A stretch of 43,180 nucleotides of DNA from an uncultured Flavobacteriaceae bacterium (GTDB lineage Bacteria; Bacteroidota; Bacteroidia; Flavobacteriales; Flavobacteriaceae): the NCBI GenBank assembly GCA_913020075.1, contig CAJWAE010000009.1, positions 1 through 43,180 on the forward strand. The letters are read 5' to 3'. The position numbers and the translations under genes were made by a program. Shown one piece after another: positions 15,966 through 37,323 of this stretch. Below the pieces are notes generated by a model. It was not told where the DNA came from and searched no databases. It saw nothing but the letters and a program-made list of their open reading frames with translations. Each line of letters starts with the position of its first letter. Position 1 is the first letter of the stretch.

Positions 15966-16187
15966 TATTCTAAATATGAAGAGTTTATATGAAATTACTG
16001 ATAAAAAATAGACTGAATTAGTTTTCAGTATTTTAAATTCATACAATAGATTGTATATTGATAAGAAATAACCTCTAAAATTAATTATTGGGCTCCAATA
16101 CAAGTTAGCTTATATTGAAGAAGGAATATTATTATTCTATTTTCCGTTTTAATATTAACCACCCAATATAATCGTATCTTACCTATT

Positions 16188-16301
16188 ATGAAAAACTTAA
16201 AAGAAATGAAATGCGAGTGTGATTGTGCTCCTTGTAAAGCAGGAATGTGTTATAGATGTACATGCAAGCCATGCAACTGTATGAACTGCGATTGTGATTA
16301 A
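16188..16301 (+). CDS. 37-aa cysteine-rich metallothionein-like protein
   Basis: A short frame of 38 codons, including TAA, encoding 37 residues. Eleven are Cys, at 9, 11, 13, 16, 21, 24, 26, 29, 31, 34 and 36. They fall into C-x-C and C-x-x-C spacings, and from 24 to 36 the unit C-x-C-x-x repeats regularly (CTCKP, CNCMN, CDC). There is no His, and apart from a single Tyr there are no aromatics. Lys, Asp and Glu fill much of the rest. This is the composition of a metallothionein, which binds soft metals such as Cu(I), Zn or Cd as thiolate clusters. It does not look like the longer SmtA/BmtA type with histidines. It is divergent from the S9 peptidase gene. No metal-responsive regulator is nearby. 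Metal binding is inferred. Confidence 0.72.
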   Translation: MKNLKEMKCECDCAPCKAGMCYRCTCKPCNCMNCDCD

Positions 16302-37056: not shown

Positions 37057-37129
37057 TTTTATAAAAATACACATGTAATAATTTACTTAAATATTTTCCT
37101 GACTTTATTCCCGAAGTCGAAAACGATTA

Positions 37130-37302
37130 AAAAAATGAAGGTAGGTCTCCTGACTTACATCTTCAATCAACCTTCCCATCAAATTATATGACAGTGGTAT
37201 TAAGAAATGACCAAAAGTATCCTAATGGACAAAATTTACAGTTGCGGGTTCAGCTTTAGATATTTACTAAATTCCCTTTTAATCTTTGTTACAAGAACCT
37301 TC
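37130..37302 (-). ncRNA. Cobalamin riboswitch
   Basis: On the minus strand the sequence contains the hallmark conserved blocks in order: AAAAGGGAA, then the B12 box AGCTGAACCCGCAACTGTAA (37236-37255), CCACTG, GATGGGAAGG, and GTCAGGAGACCTACC near the 3' end. These are the core of the class I cobalamin aptamer. It ends about 75 bases before the TonB receptor start, so ligand binding should switch off receptor expression. The gap between the aptamer and ATG is where the expression platform must lie. Confidence 0.95.
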
Positions 37303-37323
37303 TTTGTAAAGATAAGTAGTATT

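Follow-up and report, generated by a model that had tools for sequence, protein, structure and literature searches.

A metallothionein-like mini-protein family that is probably controlled, in most of its members, by a cysteine-tailed SigZ-type sigma factor

Only two bacterial metallothioneins had been functionally investigated as of 2020 (PMC7387436). SmtA and BmtA, from Synechococcus and Pseudomonas, are small, cysteine-rich proteins. SmtA has C-x-C and C-x-x-C spacings. The smtA gene adjoins the gene for a dedicated regulator, and the Pseudomonas metallothionein uses Cys9His ligands (PMC7387436). MymT, the copper metallothionein of Mycobacterium and part of the RicR regulon, is also small (PMC7387436, PMC10141476). 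The fungal copper-thioneins are very short and have dense C-x-C repeats.

Among sigma factors, CorE of Myxococcus, with its six-cysteine tail, is the precedent for metal sensing. CorE and CorE2 (group ECF238) have a cysteine-rich C-terminal extension as well as cysteines in the linker; CorE responds to copper and CorE2 to cadmium and zinc (PMC8999054, PMC3107203). SigZ of Bacillus subtilis is an ECF sigma factor that is given no further role in the relevant passage of PMC10141391, and the description of the SigZ model (TIGR02959) names no mini-protein partner. Here we describe a family of metallothionein-like mini-proteins that is likely to be run, in the usual case, by its own SigZ-type ECF sigma factor with a cysteine tail; the metal binding and the sensing are inferred.

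We began from a stretch of 43,180 nucleotides from an uncultured Flavobacteriaceae bacterium (contig CAJWAE010000009.1; hereafter, the window). The features that concern us are all on its forward strand:

15966 to 16187, + strand: intergenic region 5' of the mini-protein gene, without the sigma promoter motif and without a nearby sigma gene
16188 to 16301, + strand: mini-protein open reading frame, an orphan family member; 37 amino acids with 11 cysteines, metallothionein-like (stop codon included)
16206 to 16301, + strand: shorter form of the mini-protein from an alternative start at Met7; 31 amino acids, keeping all 11 cysteines
16212 to 16295, + strand: 28-codon core common to the family, C-x-C-x-C-x2-C-x4-C-x2-C-x-C-x2-C-x-C-x2-C-x-C

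The first-pass annotation had described a protein of 37 residues with 11 cysteines, no histidine, one tyrosine, and a C-x-C-x-x repeat from residue 24. All of this held on translation of 16188 to 16301 (+), which gives MKNLKEMKCECDCAPCKAGMCYRCTCKPCNCMNCDCD. The cysteines are at positions 9, 11, 13, 16, 21, 24, 26, 29, 31, 34, and 36, and the single aromatic residue is Tyr22. The protein thus meets the general description of a metallothionein: it is small, 11 of 37 residues are cysteine, the spacings are C-x-C and C-x-x-C, and there is one aromatic. It differs from SmtA and BmtA in that it has no histidine, as the first-pass annotation had pointed out; across the family this is not absolute, as histidine is present in 5 of 107 distinct protein cores. 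(Aromatics are present in 11 of the 107.) It is the only ATG-started frame of 20 to 60 amino acids in the window with 8 or more cysteines and 22% cysteine, and there were no equally cysteine-rich frames in 300 simulated (Markov-1) windows. On one side lies a divergent gene for a Dpp5-like peptidase and on the other a convergent, weakly GreA-like gene. Rfam had no match at the locus. (Elsewhere in the window, there is a cobalamin riboswitch at 37123 to 37317 on the minus strand, at 85.7 bits.)

The first-pass annotation had proposed that orthologs with the same spacing of the 11 cysteines would support its reading, and these exist. A search of 100 genomes, including the window's own, gave initial matches in 22, and once the frames were read, 17 loci in 15 genomes had the 11 cysteines in the same order. 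(Ten loci without the 11-cysteine pattern were dropped. They comprise the matches of the 7 genomes that fell out and second matches within genomes that stayed in.) The 15 distinct proteins that could be aligned keep every one of the 11 cysteines and little else. In two of them (L006 and L023), one cysteine spacing is shifted by one residue; these rows were chosen after a filter on cysteine density, not on spacing. Furthermore, across the 28-codon core, the window and L002 (whose protein is 76% identical over its full length) differ by about 14.7 synonymous differences in 13.2 synonymous sites, which is saturated, and by just 5.3 nonsynonymous differences in 70.8 nonsynonymous sites. The pattern against L003 is similar. 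Because the 15 aligned members retain the 11 cysteines, and because the divergence of the core from the closest relatives is mainly synonymous, we conclude that the window's frame is a real gene. Its true start is uncertain: Met7 (at 16206) might be the start instead, as many relatives from the same genus begin with Met-Cys.

A larger set of 113 distinct DNA cores, encoding the 107 proteins, had a pN/pS of 0.15. These cores were picked by an expression for the cysteine spacing, so that their perfect cysteine invariance is by construction and the ratio is biased low. In 1.02 Mb of sequence from the relatives' loci, no other frame was this cysteine-rich, save family members and one 9-cysteine variant, and there was none of comparable richness in the 41 kb that surround 12 generic ECF sigma genes.

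A profile search of the taxonomic family, which we take to be Flavobacteriaceae since nearly all of the named partner loci are from there, found the gene in 68 of 397 genomes, each with a single match at E ≤ 0.01, and these represent 49 of 237 genera. In samples of the phylum (395 genomes) and the order (196 genomes), the profile matched 5 and 4 genomes, respectively (the window's own included), all within the taxonomic family; how many of the sampled genomes lie outside that family is not shown. Tenacibaculum, Polaribacter, Winogradskyella, Kordia, Bizionia, Aquimarina, and Lutibacter are among the genera of the named partner loci.

The family appears not to have been described before, as had been suggested at first pass, although we can say this only for the resources we searched. 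The window's protein matched no Pfam or NCBIfam family at E up to 10. None of 30 members matched Pfam, and the same 30 gave one NCBIfam match, to an unrelated beta-helix repeat model at E = 0.044, which we attribute to chance. No PDB chain matched in sequence at E up to 10, which also sets the protein apart from the fungal copper-thioneins. A tblastn search of phages, with the low-complexity filter on, found nothing. In this respect too the protein is unlike SmtA, BmtA, and MymT, as no family model gives it a meaningful match. The open-licence literature that we searched has nothing on the mini-proteins or on SigZ together with a metallothionein, and a paper on Bizionia argentinensis (PMC11213822), a flavobacterium that carries the operon (L191), names metallothionein in its reference list alone.

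What the window does not reveal is that most relatives have a partner gene. In 21 of the 22 best-scoring loci from outside the window's genus, a gene for a SigZ-type ECF sigma factor of about 180 amino acids lies directly 3' of the mini-protein gene on the same strand. This neighbor sets the family apart from SmtA, which has the divergent SmtB repressor, and from MymT, whose regulator is of the CsoR/RicR type. Among the 397 genomes, the sigma gene is 7 to 253 bp 3' of the mini-protein gene, on the same strand, in 50 of the 68 that carry it (median 81 bp), or in 50 of the 66 from outside the window's genus. The remaining 18 have no sigma match at E up to 1e-35. (No more than 8 candidates from any one genome were scored in this search.) Conversely, 50 of the 51 genomes with a strong sigma match (E < 1e-50) have the mini-protein. 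This cut-off was set after we saw a gap between 2e-53 and 1e-48. In the one exception (G263, locus L228), both genes are degraded and the sigma gene has in-frame stops, so it is possible that the pair decays together. (The mini-protein gene is also degraded at L165.)

The least biased evidence comes from scanning named genomes with an alignment of the sigma factors alone, even though the mini-proteins were still recognized there by the spacing expression. Of at least 467 loci, we retained the best 80, and 77 of these have the mini-protein 5' of the sigma gene. The three misses are a frameshifted gene (L165), a locus with no mini-protein upstream (L171), and a variant (L180). The variant, from Aquimarina, has 9 cysteines instead of 11 and precedes the same type of sigma factor.

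The partner matches the SigZ model with scores on either side of the cut-off of 168.65 bits: one representative reached 178 bits and another 159. In all 38 sigma factors that we aligned (from the 80), H91, C96, C154, C155, C175, and C178 are invariant. The last four form a C-terminal CC...CxxC tail, and H91 and C96 sit in the linker region. The resemblance to CorE is only partial. The partner has four invariant cysteines in its tail instead of six in 38 residues, and its linker has one invariant cysteine and one histidine instead of CxC, so that none of the 38 meets the criteria for CorE within ECF238 (a linker CxC and a six-cysteine C-terminal domain). Also unlike CorE and CorE2, it is SigZ-type by sequence and is preceded by a metallothionein-like gene. 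An AlphaFold model of the sigma factor had a mean pLDDT of 79, with 62 to 73 in the tail.

The arrangement raises the question of whether the mini-protein is a product in its own right. It could be a cysteine-rich leader peptide, that is, a translated attenuator or upstream frame that controls the sigma gene under cysteine or metal stress. The frame is short and, in 50 of the 68 genomes that have it, directly ahead of the sigma gene, and of ten members without a sigma gene that we read, four have lost or rearranged their cysteines (one has 10, one has 11 rearranged, one has 9, and one has 7 before a stop). We consider this very unlikely. Eighteen genomes, the window's among them, have no sigma gene after the mini-protein gene, yet six of the ten members read keep the standard 11-cysteine layout, as do most loci of the window's genus, which also lack the sigma gene. 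The gene that follows in the window is convergent, and elsewhere the distance to the sigma gene varies from 7 to 253 bp. At four other SigZ-type loci (L247, L248, L249, and L255), a cysteine-rich frame of another layout follows the sigma gene and has a promoter-like sequence of its own. A precursor of a RiPP, with a modified peptide cut from the cysteine-rich core, would also be small, cysteine-rich, and conserved. This is all but ruled out: only the sigma gene recurs as a direct neighbor (21 of 37 loci), and the named clusters of neighbors include no modifying enzyme, with the caveat that remoter neighbors were only partly identified. We continue with the reading that the mini-protein is itself the functional product.

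A promoter-like motif accompanies the pair. The sequence 5' of the mini-protein gene has GCATCTTT or GCGTCTTT, a fixed spacer, and GTCT, with identical spacing in 75 of 77 loci; the exceptions have a single mismatch (L181) or are near a contig end (L190). We scanned 52 genomes (50 with an intact sigma gene, the degraded G263, and G762, which was picked by its mini-protein) with the strict pattern GCATCTTTT-N13-GTCTA. There were 38 exact matches in 36 genomes, as compared to 2 for the reversed control: 34 are promoters of intact mini-protein genes, 1 is that of a degraded one, 2 precede exporters of the CDF (cation diffusion facilitator) type, and 1 precedes a DUF3703 gene. The other 16 genomes have no exact match, and some of them have variant promoters. 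In 39 genomes taken to lack the sigma factor (no sigma match, or none above the cut-off), 18 of which carry the mini-protein, there were 4 strict matches in 3 genomes, all within long frames (reversed control, 2). A looser pattern gave 19 matches in 13 genomes: 11 mini-protein promoters, 1 CDF gene, and 7 others, which we regard as background because the reversed control gave 6. Mismatch counts separate the two kinds of loci completely, with at most 2 in all 21 sigma-linked loci and at least 4 in all 20 sigma-less loci that were scored. (One of the 20 is interrupted by a stop, and the scoring left out three loci whose proteins are variant.) Because of this split, we conclude that the motif is tied to the sigma factor, in the sense that the two co-occur in sequence.

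The window's own genus, with genomes of roughly 1 to 2 Mb, has the mini-protein gene without either of these. A sigma gene is next to it in none of 15 loci (the window included), and SigZ matches are far under the cut-off in all 38 genomes of the genus. In the 130 bases before the first cysteine codon (16082 to 16211), the best match to the motif has 5 mismatches of 14, which is no better than shuffled sequence gives, and the available sequence of the window's genome has no exact match at all. A scan for consensus promoters around the gene gave 8 sites, versus 6.6 in shuffles. The window's copy is thus an orphan for which neither the sigma gene nor the motif was found, and the operon model does not describe it because its genus lacks both. 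This is also why the first-pass annotation could not have seen the partner. Control by the sigma factor might have been lost in this small-genome genus or never gained. In one genome of the genus (L037), a block of 188 to 205 bp around the mini-protein gene is 90 to 94% identical to those at L038 and L041; the block holds little beyond the gene, and the rest of the neighborhoods are largely unlike. The gene may be moving alone here. As a separate observation, several gene starts in L037, L031, and L038 follow copies of a repeated leader (...ACTAATTTGTATATTG...TTAACCATAAATCAATTAAAATG) that can reach about 100 bp; in L037 it is at 2429, 4379, 4960, 6076, 8085, and 12270.

The other targets of the motif bear on which metal might be bound. 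Both of the exporters behind strict matches are of the CDF type, and CDF proteins handle zinc, cadmium, cobalt, nickel, iron, or manganese rather than copper. This link is sporadic: among 30 loci of one exporter's homologs that we read in sigma-bearing genomes, the original exporter's locus is the only one where the motif was found (three of the 30 had a misplaced start and so were uninformative). Of the 80 named loci, 15 have a DUF3703 gene ahead of the pair. The motif, with up to two mismatches, is directly before it in 11 of the 15 (at L148 it is further upstream of the matched piece), and all nine additional motif matches within the named loci are ahead of DUF3703 sequences. On plasmids, we read 5 contexts out of 77 DUF3703 records. 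Cation transporters, cadR, or a P-type ATPase together with an ArsR/SmtB regulator adjoin DUF3703 in four of them, and in one they do not. Because the other motif targets are CDF and DUF3703 genes, and because DUF3703 is found beside metal genes, metals of the zinc/cadmium type are the likely ligands. This is an inference, as is the binding of any metal, which the first-pass annotation had also offered only as inference; there are no metal-binding data. If so, the metal probably differs from the copper of MymT.

The first-pass annotation had also remarked on a likeness to fungal copper-thioneins. That it is a copper-thionein is supported by its shortness and by the scarcity of histidine and aromatics in the cores. 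Against this, none of the 38 strict motif matches is ahead of a copper gene and both exporters are of the CDF type, so we find it unlikely. The resemblance, in shortness and dense C-x-C repeats, is one of look alone, and the genomic evidence leans towards zinc or cadmium.

Some SigZ-type loci of other kinds have other cysteine-rich mini-proteins. At weaker SigZ matches within the same taxonomic family, a type B mini-protein (37 to 45 amino acids with 14 cysteines) is upstream of the sigma gene in 11 of 12 loci that we read (L216 to L227, among the 15 best of 49 rows), behind the related promoter-like motif GTATCYTTT...GTCT. When we sampled the phylum, SigZ matched in 34 of 296 genomes (E ≤ 1e-38). 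Twelve of the 30 loci that we read from these have an adjacent cysteine-rich mini-frame: three are type A (the layout of the present family), two are type B, and seven have other layouts (L246, L247, L248, L249, L254, L255, and L263), with four of the seven downstream of the sigma gene. No Pfam family matched three type B or four of the seven other-layout mini-proteins, and a tblastn search of plasmids with one type B sequence (low-complexity filter on) found nothing. The promoter design matches 17 of the 30 loci. Three without a mini-protein (L237, L238, and L245) have it in front of two arsenite methyltransferases (ArsM) and one ArsI/CadI protein, all of these assignments being above their cut-offs; other genes behind it, named by eye, are a MATE-like transporter, a PAP2-like and a PhzF-like protein, and one unknown. 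Plasmids of Priestia and of two Vibrio also carry SigZ-type loci, but none with a convincing counterpart.

These genes also bear on the proposal that the mini-protein is a thiol/redox buffer, or a donor of zinc to the sigma factor, instead of a detoxifying store, with the sigma factor sensing oxidation or electrophiles. The CC and CxxC of the sigma tail would suit redox sensing as much as metals, and a gene for a YpdA-type putative bacillithiol disulfide reductase is nearby in 6 of 37 loci. However, the YpdA gene is at a distance and is not the next gene, and the motif otherwise precedes metal genes (CDF and DUF3703, and ArsM and ArsI/CadI in the other SigZ-type loci). We judge this proposal improbable and retain the metal-sensing reading.

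In our preferred model, the mini-protein would be cytosolic, and its eleven cysteine thiolates would hold soft divalent metal ions, most likely zinc and cadmium, in a small cluster, so as to buffer or detoxify them. Outside the window's genus, it would usually be the first gene of a two-gene unit, with the SigZ-type sigma factor second. Metal binding at the cysteine tail and at the linker histidine and cysteine would switch the sigma factor on; it would then bring RNA polymerase to the strict motif and drive transcription of its own gene along with that of the mini-protein, and in some cases of a CDF exporter or DUF3703 as well, until the metal has been taken up by the mini-protein. What the sequences show is that the family exists, that its gene is usually paired with the sigma gene, and that a promoter-like motif co-occurs with the sigma factor. 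Activation of the sigma factor and the feedback are inferred, as are metal binding and the choice of metal, without metal-binding, expression, or peptide data.

A bolder reading, which we think could as easily be wrong as right, is that cysteine-tailed SigZ-type ECF sigma factors are general, direct sensors of metals and metalloids in Bacteroidota that run lineage-specific thiol defences. The promoter would be approximately TG[CT][AG]TC[CT]TTTT, a spacer of near-constant length, and GTCT, and the targets would be mini-proteins of unlike cysteine layout, or ArsM, ArsI/CadI, and cation exporters. If this is true, then bacterial metallothioneins would be far more common than annotation suggests, and control by sigma factors would be the main mode of metallothionein regulation in Bacteroidota.

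Apart from that reading, mini-proteins of a family that no Pfam or NCBIfam model covers occur in 49 of the 237 genera that we sampled within a single taxonomic family, next to a probable regulator that can be tested. This offers a candidate function for SigZ-type sigma factors, and further mini-metallothioneins may be findable by way of the promoter and the sigma factor instead of by their low-complexity sequences.
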